Below, in pieces: positions 29,035-44,628 of a stretch of DNA of 64,000 bases. Where the stretch lies: NCBI GenBank assembly GCA_002748735.1, contig PDTC01000010.1, positions 1-64,000 of the forward strand. Direction: 5' to 3'. Numbering within the stretch: the stretch's first letter is position 1; the number at the start of each line of letters is the position of its first letter. The position numbers and the translations under genes are program-made. The notes under the pieces were generated by a model, which saw only the letters and a list, made by a program, of their open reading frames with translations, made no database searches and was not told where the DNA came from. This DNA is from Desulfobulbus propionicus (GTDB lineage Bacteria; Desulfobacterota; Desulfobulbia; Desulfobulbales; Desulfobulbaceae).

Positions 29035-29097
29035 CCAAACTTCGGGCGGGGAGCATTGAAGAAAACCAGACACCTCGCCAACAGTAACGGAGGAGAT

Positions 29098-30666
29098 ATG
29101 CTGCACTCTTCAGTGCATCCTGACGGTATTTTCCGGGTTGGTGTCCATCGTCCGAGCTATTCGGCGGTCAACCTGCGACAGCAGACCCGGATAATGCCAC
29201 TTGGTAAGGATGAGCAAGGTCAGCTTGTGGAAAATTATGCAAATTTTCCTTGCGGCGATGTCGAGGTACAGCACGCGAGACCAGTCTATGAAATTGCCAA
29301 TGCCCTGACATTTCGTGGAGCCACCTTTATCAACTCCTCCTGGGCTGATGCCAGGGTGGATAAACCGCAATCCTTTCATCTGCCGCCGGCCGATACCTGC
29401 TCACTACGAGGGCTGCTCGAAGAGGAGCTCGAAGAACCCCTGTCAACGGCACTGCTTGCGAAACTGCCACGGCAGTTGAAATGTGCGCTGGCTGCGACCT
29501 CGACAGATCCCCAAGAACTCATTCTGCTGGCCCGAGATGTCTGTACGATGGTGTTTGCCAACGACGGCTCACCTGTAGGCCTGGCCTATACGGGTAAGGA
29601 TAGGCCTGTTCCGGTGATCGATGATTTCGAGCTTTTTGAGACCATCGCCAACAATCCTGCCCTGCCGGACGCGTATAAGGAAGTCATGGTGCTGCGCCCT
29701 GGAGTTCAGGGCGACAGCCCCATTGTTGGCGAGGTACAGGGCGCTACCCATGTGGTTGAGTATCTGCGGGGCAACTCCTATATTCCGTGGGGGCATTACG
29801 CTGCCAATCTTGCCGATGATCACATCCGCTATCGTACTGCAGACCTCACCCTGGCTGATATGGAGGGGATGCGGCACCTCTACTACCAGCGGATATTTTG
29901 TACTCTGGCGGCACAGTTGAGCCTTCCTCTTCCTGAAAAACATCTGGATGTGGCAGAACTGGAAGAACTGCGATTGACAATTCTCCAGAAAGCGGCAGGT
30001 CTCAGCCATTCGGCAACCCTGTGGGGCTGGAATTTTGGGTATGATTACTCGGCCTCCGGGTATCGGCTTCATGCCTCGCATCAGATGATTCATCAGCAGT
30101 ATGCCATGGTACCTGAGCAGGTGGAACTCGTGCATGGCGGTACTGTACCGACCTATTCCTGTGGTGATCTGGTTGCCAACGAGATACAGCGCTACAGGGA
30201 TGCATACGGCTCAGATTTTTTCAGTGACCTGCTCTCCTGCATCCGGGGGAACAGGCGCACAGATACTCGTGATCTTTGCGATTCCCTGATTATCTGGGAG
30301 GATGAGCATGTGCTGTTGTTCGTTCCCAAGGCCCAGCTTTCCCAGTGGGAGGTACAGTTACTGGTTACTGCCAATGTCGGATCAGTGCCGGTGGGCAGCG
30401 TGGTGGAGGCAGACAGTGCTGTGCGGCGGTCTCTGGATATCGCCCTCCTAAAAATTCAACATATCTATGCCATCCTGGGGGCCACCCTGGTCACGTCCAT
30501 TGAGTATCCGAAACGGCTGGGAATCTTCAATAACCAGCGCCTCCTTTACTCTTTTTTGCCCAAGCTTCCCTGGTCCATGGGAGCCTTCAGTGAAGCCCAG
30601 GGGCGCTCTATTCTTGGCCATTATCCTGAGGATTTTGCCGCAGCCTGCCGGGATTGTCTCTCCTGA
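29098..30666 (+). CDS. Unknown protein with GalT/HIT-like features
   Basis: 522 residues from the ATG after GGAGGAGA. No family is recognised with confidence. Two places resemble nucleotide-transferase HIT folds: LHASHQMIHQQYAMVP (about 335), which lines up with the ASxPHxHLQFxP pattern of Ap4A phosphorylases and GalT, and WEDEHVLLFVPKAQLSQWEV (about 402), like the FENEHxxxxVPxxAxxPFE block. The active-site His-x-His-x-His triad is not exact, so activity is uncertain. It follows the peptidase gene by 63 bases. Confidence 0.6.
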   Translation: MLHSSVHPDGIFRVGVHRPSYSAVNLRQQTRIMPLGKDEQGQLVENYANFPCGDVEVQHARPVYEIANALTFRGATFINSSWADARVDKPQSFHLPPADTCSLRGLLEEELEEPLSTALLAKLPRQLKCALAATSTDPQELILLARDVCTMVFANDGSPVGLAYTGKDRPVPVIDDFELFETIANNPALPDAYKEVMVLRPGVQGDSPIVGEVQGATHVVEYLRGNSYIPWGHYAANLADDHIRYRTADLTLADMEGMRHLYYQRIFCTLAAQLSLPLPEKHLDVAELEELRLTILQKAAGLSHSATLWGWNFGYDYSASGYRLHASHQMIHQQYAMVPEQVELVHGGTVPTYSCGDLVANEIQRYRDAYGSDFFSDLLSCIRGNRRTDTRDLCDSLIIWEDEHVLLFVPKAQLSQWEVQLLVTANVGSVPVGSVVEADSAVRRSLDIALLKIQHIYAILGATLVTSIEYPKRLGIFNNQRLLYSFLPKLPWSMGAFSEAQGRSILGHYPEDFAAACRDCLS

Positions 30667-31712: not shown

Positions 31713-31976
31713 ATGACAGCACTTACTCAAATCACACCTGTAAAAAATACATTTACCGACAATGATCTGGTATGTTATTGTTTTAAATATACAAAAAAAG
31801 ATATTGAAAAGGATTTCCAGGAGTATGGCTATTCCAGAGTTCTTGCGAGGATAACGACTGAAAAAAAGAACAAGGGATGCAACTGTGAGGTTAAGAATCC
31901 CAAGAAGAGGTGATGCTTGGGAGATGTCCACCAGGTGGTGGAAGACGTGAAAAAAGAGCACAGGATAAGCAGGTAA
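31713..31976 (+). CDS. Probable selenocysteine-containing BFD-like [2Fe-2S] protein (UGA readthrough at 31911)
   Basis: 87 residues if TGA at 31911-31913 is read as selenocysteine (residue 67), with the real stop TAA at 31974. The N-terminus has CYCF and TKKDIEKDF as in BFD/CopZ-type proteins, and a second CNC pair follows. The normal family continues NPKGxCCLGDV; here it reads NPKKR, TGA, then CLGDVHQVVEDVKKEH in frame, so the TGA replaces the first Cys of Cys-Cys. The conventional call is a 66-residue protein ending at 31913. Four cysteine-type ligands of a [2Fe-2S] centre would then be two CxC residues plus Sec-Cys. SelA is encoded in this window. The Shine-Dalgarno is weak; TATAAC lies 22 bases upstream of the ATG. 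Confidence 0.72.
31914..31949 (+). promoter_or_regulatory. Candidate bacterial SECIS element
   Basis: Directly after the TGA, TCCACC (31927-31932) pairs with GGTGGA (31937-31942) around an AGGT loop (31933-31936). The loop starts 19 bases after the TGA, within the 16-37 range reported for bacterial SECIS elements, and it contains the GGT (GGU in RNA) important in E. coli fdhF. A bulge is possible next to the upper stem. The rest of the stem is less certain. Confidence 0.55.
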
Positions 31977-39436: not shown

Positions 39437-42400
39437 CGGCTGATGATGACCTGATCCGCCGTGGTCGTCGCCCGACTGGCGGGTTGATACATATCCTCAA
39501 CCTCGGCCGGAGGCAGGGTGTAGTTTCCCGGAAAAATCGCGCGCATCAGATAGGCCAGGCGAAACAGATGCTTTTCCCCCCACGGAGGCGGGGGCAGATC
39601 ATCTGTATCAAGCGCTGCCACAAACCGATCATCAAGGCCATCGATATACTGGGTCGGGCTGAGCTCAGGCAGCCAGTCGGACAGCCCCGGTATCGTACCA
39701 AGGCGGTTCTTGAGGCGGCTGTCCATGATCTCAAAGCCCGCTGGTAGCAAGTCCACGACCAGAGCCCGACTCCTGCCGTCCTTGGTAACCTCGCCACGAA
39801 GGAGGACAACCACCATATCGCCCTGCAGCACTGCAGCCCTGTCCACGGGCGTACCGTCAAGGGTGAACCAGCTTCGCTTCAGGGAAAACCCCTTGGCTAC
39901 GAGTGGCGGCGGTTCAATGGTCAGCCCCTTGACCGTGGCTGACAGCCAGACAGGATGCTTACCTGTATTGACCAGGTATGGGCCGCCATCAGTGCCGAGC
40001 CGGGCCTCGCCAAGGGTGAACACCTGTTGTCCCATGGCAACAGGCTGATCGTCAAGACGCAGGTCCAGCGGCGCTCCACCTTCCAGTGTCAACGCCGCCA
40101 GGATCAGCCAGGCCTGCTCCTGGGTGGACAGGAAGGAGGTGGCTGCCACCTCACGGGTAAGCTCCTCCCAGGCTTGCGCAGGGTCAATATCACTGCCACA
40201 CTCATCGATGATGCTGATCACCACGGCTAGATCACGGATCCTTGAACCGTAGCTTGACCAGTACTCCCCCTGCTTTTTCCCACGTTGCAAGGCAGCGTTC
40301 AAGGCCCGGCTGCCGCGCTTGTTATCACCAAGAAGGGTGAGGGTTCCGCCGAGATGAGCAAGCGCCTGCGATGACAGAGAGGCATGATCGAGGGTATCAA
40401 AGAGGTAACGGACATCTTCAGGGCTGGCCATGTTCTCCCGGGCAAGGACCCAGTGGGCATAGGCGAGTGCTGCCACCCCGGTATCCTTGGGCAGATCAGC
40501 GGCCCGAACCCGCTTACTCAACCACTGCAGCCCCTGCTCGTACAAGGTATCGGCAACAAGGATTTGTTTTTTTCTGGCGCGCGCGAGAAAATCCATGGCA
40601 TAGGCACTCAGCCAGGGATCTGTTTCACCCTGACCGGACCAGAGGCCAAAGCTGCCATCTTCACGCTGTTTCTCCAAGACAAGGGTGACGGCCTCGGCAA
40701 GACGGCCATCCAGGTTGTCCTCGCCGTTGCCGGCATGCCATTGGCGGGCCAGACTGTCCGCGTACAACAACGGCATGGCCCGGCTGGTCACCTGTTCCAG
40801 GCAGCCATAGGGGTAGCGTTTCAGCTGCGCCAGCAGTCCTGGTACATCAAGGTTTGGCGTGCTGCTGACACTGAGGGCGAAGGTGACCGTGTCCCTGTGC
40901 AGGTCACTGATCAGCGCGGCGGGGACTGTAAAACCTTGCTGTGGGGCGAGCCGTACAAAGGTTCTGCGCAGGACAGGCAGGTATTTATCACGCACATTGA
41001 GGGAATAGCTGGTGGTCGTTGTGTAGCTGCCCGGCCCTTTAACGGCAAGCGTAAGGGTACCGGAACCGACACCTTCTGCCCGAAGGTCATAGCTCAGACC
41101 CTGTCGTTGCCCCTGGGTCAGGACCACATGCCTGACACTCTCACCCTTGATGGCGACGGCCCCGGCAGCGGTGGCAGTGACCAGGTATTCACCGTCATCA
41201 CCATCCATGTTCTCGATGAGGAGATGCATGGAACTGCGGTCATCACGCGCGAGGAACCGGGGCAGCGAGGGGGAGAGCACCACGGCATCACGAACAGTCA
41301 GCTCCTTGCTGGCAGCGCCCATGGCAGAGACGCTCCAGGCCATGGCCGTCAGTCGCAGTCTGCCGTTAATATCCGGGAGTTCCAGGGGCACGACAGCCCT
41401 GCCATCAGGGCCGACCGCAACCGTGCCGGAAAACAGGGCCACAACCCGGACGTTAGACTCGACCATACCGCGGAGGGCGTCATCACCGCCACCGGAGCGC
41501 AGAGGAAGCGGCTTACCGCCAGGGCCACTGATGAGCCGGCCGTACAGGTCACGGATGTCTGTCCCCAATTGCTGCTGCCCAAAGAAATACGACAGCGGAT
41601 CCGGGGCCGGGTGTCCGGTCATCTCAAGGACCCCCGCATCCACGGCAGCCAACACCAGCGACGCCTTCTCCCCCTTTTTGACACCAGCAACCTGGACAGG
41701 AACCTCCAGGGTTTTTCGTGGCGCGGTCTTCTCCGGGGTTTCGATACGCACCTCCATCTGCTGATCCCTGTGATCAACCCCCAGCCAGACCAGGCCCATG
41801 GCACGTCCGGGGCCAGCCTTACTCTCACCGGGCCGGTACACCGTGACCAGGGCGTAAACACCGGCACCCCAGTCCCTGGTCACCGGCACGGTGAGCTCGT
41901 GTTCACCGGTGTTGAGAGAAAAAGAACGCAGCTGGTGGACGCCGGTCCCGGCGAGCACCAGGGTGGCCTCGCCGGTAAAGGGTGCCTGCAGCCGCAGTCG
42001 GGCTGTCTCTCCGGGAAGATAGTTTTTCCGGTCCGTCGACACCTGCACGGCGTCTGGAATATCAGCACTGTCTCGACCCTGCCCTGCCCAAAAACGCCAG
42101 GAGGCAACCGGGGTAGAACGGTGATCGAGCACCTCAAAACGATAGCCACCCCATTGCACCGGCACTGACATCTTTCCATGGCCGGGGCTGGTGAACTCGA
42201 CCGGCTGCTGCAGGACCTGATGTTCCCTGACCACTCGCTGATAACTCCATTCACCGCCCTTGCTGAACCACTGATAGTCAATGTCTTCCTTGACCAGGCG
42301 GTAGCTGAGTTGTGCAGCCGGTAACGGCTTACCCTGGCCATCGAGGACGATCACCTCGAAGTCAGCCATGCTCTCTTCTGATGTCTTTTTTCCGGAAAAG

Positions 42401-44628
42401 CCTGGTTTGATGCCAACATAACGGTCCAGATGCCGCACCGGAACCTGGATCTGATGGGCAACAGTGCGCCCATCGATATCAACCACATCAAGGGCAACAG
42501 TTGCCCGGACCGGCCGGGTCCCTCCGGGGAACTCGTCGAGACCACAGGAGAACACCGCCACGCCCGCATCGTCTGTTCTCGTTTCCTCCATCTGCTGGAC
42601 AGCAAAATCTATCTGCTCGTCTTCACGTCCAAACAGGTACCCGTCAAACTCCGTAAAGGGGCGAGGATCTGGGGTGAGGGAGAACTGGGCCTCTACCTGG
42701 AGCCCACTGCCGGGGGCGCCATAGAGATATTCGGCAGAGACAACCACCCTGGCCCTAGCTTTGCGGGTAATCATGCCCTCGACCTCAGCCTGAATTTCCA
42801 GACGGGGCGGGGTAAAGGCGTCCACTTCAAATGCAGTGCGGCCCACAGGCGGCCGGTCAGGATCGGCGAACAGCAATACCTGCCAATTCCCTGTACGAGC
42901 ACCCTGGGGCAAGGCCAAAGAGCTTACCAGGGCCCCGGCCGTATCCGTATGCAGCAGCCGCTCCACAGCAATCTTTCCATCAGGCCTGCGGAGCTGCAAT
43001 GTCAAGGGTGGAGCCTGCAGGGCCCGGCCCTGACCATCACGAACCAGACCAACGAGGTTGACCTGGCCTCCAGGCCGGTATATTCCCCGATCTGTGTGGA
43101 GATAGGCATCCATTGCGGTTGGCGGCATTCTCCCAGCAACGCCGCGGTCACTGAGGTCAAAGGGTGCGGTCTCCAGCGGTAAAAAGGTAAAGCCATGCAC
43201 CTGATCCTGGGCGACCACCAGGGCAGGGCGCGACCCGCCTTTGCCTCGCAGCAGCCCGGCAGGAAAGTGGGCACGCCCCTGTTCGTCAGTACGGACAACG
43301 GCCAGCTCCTTGTTGTTCCTGGAAAACAGGGATACGGACAGGCCGGAAAAGGATCGGGCCGTGGCAAGGCTGCGGGCAACCACGGTCAACCCGTCATTCC
43401 CCTGATAGGTTGTCAGGCCTATGTCAGTAATCACAAGCCATTGCGAGGCGTTATCCTGCCAGCGCTTTCCCTGTTCGCTAGCCCTGACAGCGGTCAGCGC
43501 GTAAAGCCCGGGTTCCTTGAGTACCTTTTGCGGCAGTTCCAGGCTGTTGACACTGACCTGATCCTGCTCACCCGGGAGATCGACCATGCCCTCCCAGACC
43601 AGCTCACCAACAGTGTCACGGATCTGCTCCATCTCATTTCTGTTGAGTTTTCGCCGGAACTTTGACTGCACAAATCCACTGAGCAGGTTGCGCTCCTGAA
43701 TGCGATAGAGCTCGAGTCTGGCGGTCTTCACATTCACGGAGTGGAGGCCAATGCCTGTCTCTGCGAGCAGTGGAAGAACATAGGCATCAGTCTCGAACCA
43801 GAGGGCTGGATCCCGGTGGCCAGTGTGCATGGTAAAACTGGTGGACTCGGGCAGGACCGAGCCTGTGCCGGGTAACCCTTTAAGGAGGGTCAGCGTATAG
43901 GTGGTGCCAAATTGTGCCCCGTCTATACAGACTTCCCGGCCTCTTACCCGAAACTCGCCGCCGGGCTGCGGAGAGATCCGGATATACTCTTCCAGGCTGC
44001 CACTGTCCTCGGTGTTTAACCGGTGATTAAACTGCAGACAGAGGCCAGGCTGACTCCCTTGCTCTGACACCTCGTGACCGACAAGCTGCAGTTGTTGAGT
44101 TTTTTGCTTCAACTGCCGGATCTTCTCTTCGATCTCGACAGTATCCTCAAGGTCAAGCAACATCTCATAAACAGCCAGGGCCGCGGGGGTCCAGTCATTG
44201 CGGTAATGACTGCGCTGCTCAAGAGCCTCGGCAACCCGCCGCAGGGATCTGGCCCGTTGCCGAGGATCCTCAGTGGCCAAAGCGGCAAGATAACCGGTGG
44301 TGGCGGCATATCTCCACTGGGAAGAACAAAACGAAGCCCGGGACAGCCCTTCCCAGACGGCGTAGTCCGGCGTAACACCCAGCTTCAAGGCCTGCCAGTA
44401 CAGGCTGTATGCCAGTCCGCACTCCTTTTCACTGGTCATGAGTTCAGCTGCCTGCAAAAGAATCTGGCCGTGTTCGGGCTTGGGCCGAACCCGCGTTTGC
44501 CCTTCGAGCTGCTGCTGAAACAGGGCGACCTCACGGGTCAGATCCATCAGCTTGTTGCTGGCGTTTCCCGGTGTCCAGCCCAGGAGCAGACAAATTACGG
44601 ACAGTATCAGCGATCGAAGAAGGGTCAT
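39433..44628 (-). CDS. Bacterial alpha-2-macroglobulin (YfhM-like)
   Basis: 1731 residues with a signal peptide (MTLLRSLILSVICLLLG). The thioester motif is intact as YPYGCLEQVTSRAMPL near residue 1275, so it should trap attacking proteases covalently in the periplasm. Several macroglobulin beta-sandwich repeats precede it. I do not see a convincing lipobox. ATG 44628 is chosen because AGGGAGA precedes it. It works with PBP1C, which would repair peptidoglycan after attack; that pairing is established for E. coli YfhM. Confidence 0.92.
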   Translation of the reverse strand: MTLLRSLILSVICLLLGWTPGNASNKLMDLTREVALFQQQLEGQTRVRPKPEHGQILLQAAELMTSEKECGLAYSLYWQALKLGVTPDYAVWEGLSRASFCSSQWRYAATTGYLAALATEDPRQRARSLRRVAEALEQRSHYRNDWTPAALAVYEMLLDLEDTVEIEEKIRQLKQKTQQLQLVGHEVSEQGSQPGLCLQFNHRLNTEDSGSLEEYIRISPQPGGEFRVRGREVCIDGAQFGTTYTLTLLKGLPGTGSVLPESTSFTMHTGHRDPALWFETDAYVLPLLAETGIGLHSVNVKTARLELYRIQERNLLSGFVQSKFRRKLNRNEMEQIRDTVGELVWEGMVDLPGEQDQVSVNSLELPQKVLKEPGLYALTAVRASEQGKRWQDNASQWLVITDIGLTTYQGNDGLTVVARSLATARSFSGLSVSLFSRNNKELAVVRTDEQGRAHFPAGLLRGKGGSRPALVVAQDQVHGFTFLPLETAPFDLSDRGVAGRMPPTAMDAYLHTDRGIYRPGGQVNLVGLVRDGQGRALQAPPLTLQLRRPDGKIAVERLLHTDTAGALVSSLALPQGARTGNWQVLLFADPDRPPVGRTAFEVDAFTPPRLEIQAEVEGMITRKARARVVVSAEYLYGAPGSGLQVEAQFSLTPDPRPFTEFDGYLFGREDEQIDFAVQQMEETRTDDAGVAVFSCGLDEFPGGTRPVRATVALDVVDIDGRTVAHQIQVPVRHLDRYVGIKPGFSGKKTSEESMADFEVIVLDGQGKPLPAAQLSYRLVKEDIDYQWFSKGGEWSYQRVVREHQVLQQPVEFTSPGHGKMSVPVQWGGYRFEVLDHRSTPVASWRFWAGQGRDSADIPDAVQVSTDRKNYLPGETARLRLQAPFTGEATLVLAGTGVHQLRSFSLNTGEHELTVPVTRDWGAGVYALVTVYRPGESKAGPGRAMGLVWLGVDHRDQQMEVRIETPEKTAPRKTLEVPVQVAGVKKGEKASLVLAAVDAGVLEMTGHPAPDPLSYFFGQQQLGTDIRDLYGRLISGPGGKPLPLRSGGGDDALRGMVESNVRVVALFSGTVAVGPDGRAVVPLELPDINGRLRLTAMAWSVSAMGAASKELTVRDAVVLSPSLPRFLARDDRSSMHLLIENMDGDDGEYLVTATAAGAVAIKGESVRHVVLTQGQRQGLSYDLRAEGVGSGTLTLAVKGPGSYTTTTSYSLNVRDKYLPVLRRTFVRLAPQQGFTVPAALISDLHRDTVTFALSVSSTPNLDVPGLLAQLKRYPYGCLEQVTSRAMPLLYADSLARQWHAGNGEDNLDGRLAEAVTLVLEKQREDGSFGLWSGQGETDPWLSAYAMDFLARARKKQILVADTLYEQGLQWLSKRVRAADLPKDTGVAALAYAHWVLARENMASPEDVRYLFDTLDHASLSSQALAHLGGTLTLLGDNKRGSRALNAALQRGKKQGEYWSSYGSRIRDLAVVISIIDECGSDIDPAQAWEELTREVAATSFLSTQEQAWLILAALTLEGGAPLDLRLDDQPVAMGQQVFTLGEARLGTDGGPYLVNTGKHPVWLSATVKGLTIEPPPLVAKGFSLKRSWFTLDGTPVDRAAVLQGDMVVVLLRGEVTKDGRSRALVVDLLPAGFEIMDSRLKNRLGTIPGLSDWLPELSPTQYIDGLDDRFVAALDTDDLPPPPWGEKHLFRLAYLMRAIFPGNYTLPPAEVEDMYQPASRATTTADQVIISR

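Follow-up and report, generated by a model that had tools for sequence, protein, structure and literature searches.

Positions 31713 to 31976 on the forward strand of the window, the 64-kb stretch of DNA analysed here, very probably form a selenoprotein gene, in which selenocysteine (Sec) is encoded by a hairpin-flanked UGA and the product is a one-domain relative of CopZ-like (2Fe-2S) proteins whose likeliest role is in redox chemistry or metal capture. The frame opens with MTALTQITP, runs on through GCNCEVKNPKKR to a TGA at 31911-31913, continues as CLGDVHQVVEDVKKEHRISR and ends at a TAA at 31974. The full translation is MTALTQITPVKNTFTDNDLVCYCFKYTKKDIEKDFQEYGYSRVLARITTEKKNKGCNCEVKNPKKR-U-CLGDVHQVVEDVKKEHRISR, with the TGA as its sole interruption; read in this way it is an 87-residue protein with a single CopZ/BFD-like domain, a presumed [2Fe-2S] site and Sec as residue 67. 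Its layout is C21-x-C23 ... C56-x-C58 ... U67-C68, and the columns that do not vary in a 19-sequence alignment (A1) include C21, C23, C56, C58, N62, P63, U67 and C68. Plain open-reading-frame callers would truncate this gene. An earlier note on the same DNA had proposed a Sec codon here, and on rereading the sequence we found its coordinates for the frame, the TGA and the TAA to be correct; the proposal itself is now strongly supported by relatives that keep both the TGA and the sequence 3′ of it, by a conserved hairpin, and by genes for tRNA-Sec and SelD.

The plainest alternative is that the TGA is a true stop, which would end a 66-residue four-Cys protein and leave the conservation downstream as a remnant or as some other feature. 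In its favor are the standard code, a hairpin that is unexceptional when the window is considered alone, and the failure to find selB in the assembly. The relatives of the gene point firmly the other way. A search of 57 genomes from the family and order, one of which is the window's own, gave a match in 21; 20 of these hold one TGA inside it, while the 21st (G016, 29% identity) has Cys at the site. Of the order's 257 genomes, 120 matched a profile built from the 19 sequences of A1, and our hand-counted table of 131 order matches, which like its counterpart for the phylum reports only a TGA inside the match and not its position, contains 123 with a TGA and eight without. Three of these eight span the site (G194, G016 and G078), and the other five are partial matches that end before it. 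Every one of the 116 order matches scoring at least 79.8 bits carries the TGA; three of them also have a TAA and one has two TGAs. Similarly, a draw of 395 genomes across the phylum gave 60 matches at an E value of 1e-10, with a TGA in 58, and the two without it (G310 and G343) are Cys proteins. Where it is found in the phylum, this small CopZ-type family is selenium-based almost without exception.

The position of the TGA was read in 48 fetched loci, eight of which were repeats. By a motif expression that allowed either Cys or Sec, 47 of the 48, amounting to 39 distinct loci, have Sec at the site; the remaining one (L035) spells its first C-x-C differently and fell outside the motif set, but nonetheless has U-C at the site. 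Sequence left over as a remnant would be lost by decay, with no preference for TGA over TAA or TAG, and this is hard to reconcile with 116 of 116 strong order matches that carry the TGA and with 39 loci that keep U-C and the stretch after it. Taken with the compensatory changes in the hairpin and the presence of Sec machinery described below, these observations make a true stop very unlikely. A local sequencing error or a reassigned TGA code is barely credible: we found no point in support of either, and more than 100 genomes have a TGA within the match, so a read-level error, including the frameshift that the earlier note had raised as a possible undoing of its reading, cannot account for it. 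Reassignment is further opposed by the conserved hairpin that lies beside this particular TGA and by the way other genes end: 12 of the 18 long window frames that we checked, selA included, terminate in TGA, which is thus a normal stop codon here.

That SECIS-like hairpin, TCCACC-AGGT-GGTGGA, occupies 31927 to 31942 on the forward strand, with its stem at 31927-31932 and 31937-31942 and its AGGT loop at 31933-31936. The earlier note had described this hairpin but had set it 19 bases after the TGA, which is where the loop starts; the stem starts at 13. On its own the window hairpin is unremarkable and would not convince. Against dinucleotide shuffles its z scores were -0.55 and -0.70 for two shorter stretches and -2.38 and -2.55 for two longer ones, as many stem pairs appeared in 3.7% of synonymous recodings, and folding was as good in 9.7% of them. 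It is conservation in relatives that makes the hairpin far more than chance. Across the 39 distinct Sec loci, all seven stem pairs form in 31 and six of seven in the other eight, always at a constant distance from the TGA, and the loops conform to [AG]G[GT]T (AGGT in 29, GGGT in six, AGTT in four). Synonymous recodings of the Sec peptides average only 4.7 stem pairs, and the same stretch of 57 Cys homologues, from which the hairpin is absent, averages 3.2. Likewise, the mean minimum free energy is -12.6 kcal/mol in the Sec loci as compared to -3.4 kcal/mol in the 57 Cys homologues, and in 28 of the 39 Sec loci the observed value was matched by fewer than 5% of synonymous recoding trials.

Covariation within the stem points in the same direction. 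One pair, in which the third position of a Val/Ile codon is matched with the first position of a codon, usually Asn/Asp, that comes five codons later, is C-G in 18, U-A in 18 and U-G in two of 38 distinct rows, a compensatory change. The covariation score was 0.254, a value that neither any of 500 shuffles nor any slid version attained. Two other counts were less discriminating; three pairs changed on both sides, a number reached by 57 of the 500 shuffles, and there were ten further pair types, a number reached by 270 of the 500. The peptide encoded by the hairpin, V-R-Q-V-V, has an entropy of 0.3-0.6 bits in Sec forms versus 1.8-3.6 bits in Cys forms, the Cys set being taxonomically the wider of the two. 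The RNA structure that accompanies the Sec codon therefore probably dictates the protein sequence that follows U-C in the Sec forms. A scan of Rfam at gathering threshold returned four tRNAs and nothing else.

The genome also encodes most of the apparatus for Sec insertion. As the earlier note had it, selA (L-seryl-tRNA(Sec) selenium transferase) lies at position 432 of the window, where there is an ATG; the gene covers 432 to 1853 on the forward strand within an open frame from 378, and matches TIGR00474 with 617.6 bits (cut-off 267.9). A tRNA-Sec with the anticodon TCA lies on contig C17 (72.6 bits, cut-off 47), and a second hit of the same model just above the cut-off (47.5 bits) is a tRNA-Trp according to ARAGORN. 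A selD gene is encoded on the minus strand of contig C18 (L017, G000:C18:45080-46021; SelD match of 363.8 bits) and has an in-frame TGA at GUAAKL, so that the selenophosphate synthetase of this organism is probably itself a selenoprotein. Thus, of the further genes that the earlier note had wished to see in the genome, selC and selD join selA, and selB was not found in the assembly (1.81 Mb in 30 contigs, 85.6% complete, with the window taking up the start of a contig of 194,896 bases). Of seven TIGR00475 hits there, the best reached 103 bits against a cut-off of 242, and three of the frames that were hit we take by their look to be LepA, EF-G and RF3. SelB scored above the cut-off in 49 of the group's 57 genomes. 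Among the 20 genomes that carry the TGA gene, 19 have such a SelB, and the one that does not is the window's own. Because tRNA-Sec, selA and a Sec-type selD are all present, the absence of selB most plausibly reflects a gap in the assembly. EF-Tu-like hits (about 160-200 bits, in frames of about 340-470 residues) are likewise missing from this assembly, which lends such a gap weak support since, by count, only 33 of the 57 genomes show them. The notion that selB usually adjoins selA, and would here lie just past the contig edge, was dropped, as in none of eight relatives' loci was selA found closer to selB than roughly 1.5 kb.

Homologues with Cys in place of Sec were collected in one scan of genome contigs, as the best 80 of 225 confirmed relatives from many phyla; the search pattern required Cys-Cys, and Sec forms outside the phylum therefore could not show up. 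The TGA of the window aligns with the first Cys of the Cys-Cys pair in these homologues from other phyla, just as the earlier note had suggested. An expression with six Cys fits 58 of the best 80 loci, and C21, C23, C56, C58, C67 and C68 are invariant, as the selection demands, across 48 of the 56 listed stretches together with the window protein. Direct reading of the 22 loci missed by the expression found the same six Cys in 19; in L110 position 56 is not Cys, and the printed frame allowed only a partial judgement of L084 and L095. A tree was built from 39 Sec domains together with 58 Cys domains; it has few columns, is unrooted and leaves out the phylum's own few Cys forms. A single branch in it, with support of 97/96, has all the Sec forms on one side and no Cys forms among them. 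This grouping persists, with an SH-aLRT value of 95, after dropping all columns from Sec onward, which are those constrained by the hairpin. Given this placement, the use of selenium in the lineage may well have had a single origin.

A crude test for the motif of an N-terminal domain detected it in none of the 39 Sec loci as opposed to 34 of the 58 Cys homologues, and the nearest Met before the first C-x-C is a median of five residues away (maximum 20) in the 39 Sec loci versus a median of 48 in the Cys homologues. The window protein resembles a CopZ-like protein reduced to its C-terminal domain. A 516-residue open frame in G381 that was considered as a possible fusion proved to be an Arg-rich open frame leading into the usual short protein. 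With the single window protein as query, no relatives were found in viral contigs.

The genes that surround the relatives offer a lead to function. For this purpose we retrieved 40 loci, each spanning roughly 4 to 11 kb; these were not a random sample, since they required contigs long enough to include neighbors and several were chosen for long open frames. Five in which the motif expression missed the gene (L177, L178, L179, L189 and L192) were dropped, leaving 33 Sec and two Cys loci with 133 neighbor proteins of at least 90 residues, of which 132 were scanned and one, beside the L175 Cys gene, was left out. At least 15 of the 33 Sec loci, in this non-random set and as a raw count without a background, have an ArsP, MerA-like, MerR-type, ACR3/ArsC or ChrA gene within the fetched stretch. 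For example, merC (203.8 bits, cut-off 170) and merA (537.5 bits, cut-off 454) are positioned directly downstream of the Sec gene in G018, and a MerA is upstream of it in G358 (514.2 bits). Other cases were a shorter MerA-like frame in G002 (381.9 bits, below cut-off), a MerR-type regulator in G027 (142.1 bits, below the cut-off of 150.85), and, in G023, an ACR3 (360.1 bits, cut-off 283) accompanied by an ArsC-type protein (143.0 bits, below the cut-off of 174). When neighbors were clustered, an ArsR cluster was found in four and a permease cluster in three of the first 20 loci, with more once the phylum loci were added, and ArsP permeases were found in seven loci. Several individual arrangements were also observed. 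The Sec gene of L160 (G018:C172) is the one followed by merC and merA and lies within a mer cluster, and in L024 a partial frame labelled by sequence as MerR-like lies upstream. In L171, L172 and L173, which represent three genomes from two families, a gene for a chromate transporter starts about 1.2-1.3 kb ahead of the Sec gene. The Cys form in L175 (G310:C1:956399-966590) is immediately 5′ of a frame labelled by sequence as MerA-like.

The window's own copy has a different setting. No metal(loid) gene was recognized beside it, and no MerA above the cut-off was found in its genome. Upstream are frames without a match, together with one that we take to be peptidase-like, and downstream are genes that are presumably of lpx type, for lipid A and the cell envelope. 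One upstream frame, at 29056-30666, encodes 536 residues with no Pfam match at 1e-5. Because the window copy is without metal neighbors, the metal reading is a lead from its relatives rather than a finding on this gene. Elsewhere in the same genome, an SO_0444-type Cu/Zn efflux permease (L196:1447-2592, on G000:C3 around 41867-42781; 430.7 bits, cut-off 300) has an in-frame TGA in PLPLUSCGVIP, with a frame that looks ArsR-like by sequence just upstream. This permease is likely to be a second selenoprotein in the genome, and its family is listed among selenoproteins with the motif UxC in a 2026 review (PMC13188914).

For the window gene, the mechanism that we propose is that SelB would bind the hairpin just 3′ of the UGA and bring the Sec-tRNA(UCA), whereupon the ribosome would read on to produce the 87-residue relative of the CopZ-like C-terminal domain. 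Six conserved chalcogens (C-x-C, C-x-C and U-C) would then be available, four of which probably hold the [2Fe-2S] cluster. The only convincing solved relative, and the nearest by sequence, is 2hu9 (E value of 5.5e-5 with the family profile). Its entry is titled 'Mercuric transport protein periplasmic component', and we take it to be the N-terminal part of Archaeoglobus fulgidus CopZ. In the alignment of 2hu9 with the window protein, C21, C23, C58, U67 and C68 correspond to chain positions 75, 77, 109, 118 and 119, and C56 corresponds to K107. We take the cluster ligands of the A. fulgidus protein to be C75, C77, C109 and C119; if these hold, Sec would be the neighbor of a ligand, and the additional Cys56 could be its partner in a pair. 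Sec is accordingly placed by this model on, or directly next to, a predicted cluster ligand.

What such a protein would do we infer from its sequence and company, and the role could lie in metal(loid) handling or in redox chemistry. Because relatives recur beside merC-merA, MerA-like, MerR-type, ArsR, ACR3, ArsC-type and ArsP genes, its likeliest function would be that of a small redox or metal-capturing partner in the handling of thiophilic metal(loid)s such as Hg and As. In a more specific form of this proposal, which we put forward tentatively and regard as possible rather than probable, Sec on or beside the cluster would capture Hg(II), As(III) or related metal(loid)s with high affinity through its selenolate, and the cluster would serve as a source or a sensor of electrons. 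If true, this would add a selenium-based metallochaperone or reductase partner to mer and ars systems. A selenoprotein of more general purpose, namely a module for electron transfer or redox sensing that has no part in metal resistance and in which Sec would do no more than tune a disulfide-like pair (C56/U67 or U67/C68), is a serious contender to which we give somewhat less than an even chance. Consistent with such a module, no metal(loid) gene was recognized near the window copy or near up to 18 of the 33 Sec loci, C56 and U67 co-occur in nearly all homologues that were read even though C56 is matched by a lysine in 2hu9, and most uncharacterized selenoproteins probably have redox functions according to the 2026 review (PMC13188914). 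It fits less well with the neighbors themselves. Among the 25 neighbor Pfam families shown of 162, ArsP_1 is the commonest (six of 132 proteins), followed by Pyr_redox_2 (four, three of them MerA-like), after which metal-type families such as Chromate_transp, LMWPc (ArsC type) and ArsR-type HTH_5 tie with GGDEF and others at three each; in addition, one Sec copy sits with both merC and merA. The same review implicates most transport-related selenoproteins in metal or metalloid resistance (PMC13188914).

With regard to known protein families, the window protein resembles several and scores below the cut-offs of three profiles, Fer2_BFD, NF047645 and NF045877. The earlier note called it BFD-like, and this is apt insofar as it is a small domain that opens with C-x-C, as does the small [2Fe-2S] domain Fer2_BFD (PF04324), but the match to that Pfam family is a distant one (14.9 bits, cut-off 26). 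The second Cys motif of Fer2_BFD presumably differs from that of the window protein. A closer likeness is to the CopZ-type metallochaperone family NF047645 (CopZ_Nterm_CC), which the window protein matches with 51.6 bits against a cut-off of 100 and only over profile positions 82-137 of 138. Both NF047645 and 2hu9 share with it the layout C-x-C ... C ... NPxGRCC, but they have Cys where the window protein has Sec, and NF047645 includes some 80 positions ahead of the matched part that appear to have no counterpart in the Sec loci. A related domain, NF045877 (Csac_0668 2Fe-2S (seleno)protein, form 2, CopZ_Nterm_CU), is matched with 19.3 bits against a cut-off of 190. Its motif is given as CU in the 2026 review, so that Sec follows Cys in form 2, whereas it precedes Cys in the window protein. 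Csac_0668 itself was predicted computationally to bind (2Fe-2S) and to take part in hydrogen production, and Sec is not mentioned in the passages on that prediction (PMC4510573).

The nearest counterpart in print is form 1 of the same kind, '(2Fe-2S)-binding protein (copper chaperone Copz family) form 1' (cd10141, representative WP_245779778.1), which is listed with the motif GxUC and credited to Zhang and Gladyshev 2008 in Table 1 of the 2026 review (PMC13188914), and which also appears, without a motif, in the table of a 2022 review (PMC9312934). None of the terms 2Fe-2S, CopZ and BFD occurs in the main text of the 2008 paper or of a 2016 one, nor does that of 2008 mention a copper chaperone, and in the open-licence PubMed Central literature we found no experimental work on Sec forms of this CopZ-type family. 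Published description and motif liken form 1 to the window protein, both having the same CopZ-type domain with Sec first in an adjacent Sec-Cys pair, but K replaces G two residues before Sec in the window protein; G is found at that position in 36 of the 39 distinct Sec loci. The CopZ-type (2Fe-2S) selenoprotein is thus a kind already known in print, to which the window gene adds a well-supported member, along with the uniform use of selenium among its relatives and the metal-gene neighbors of several of them.
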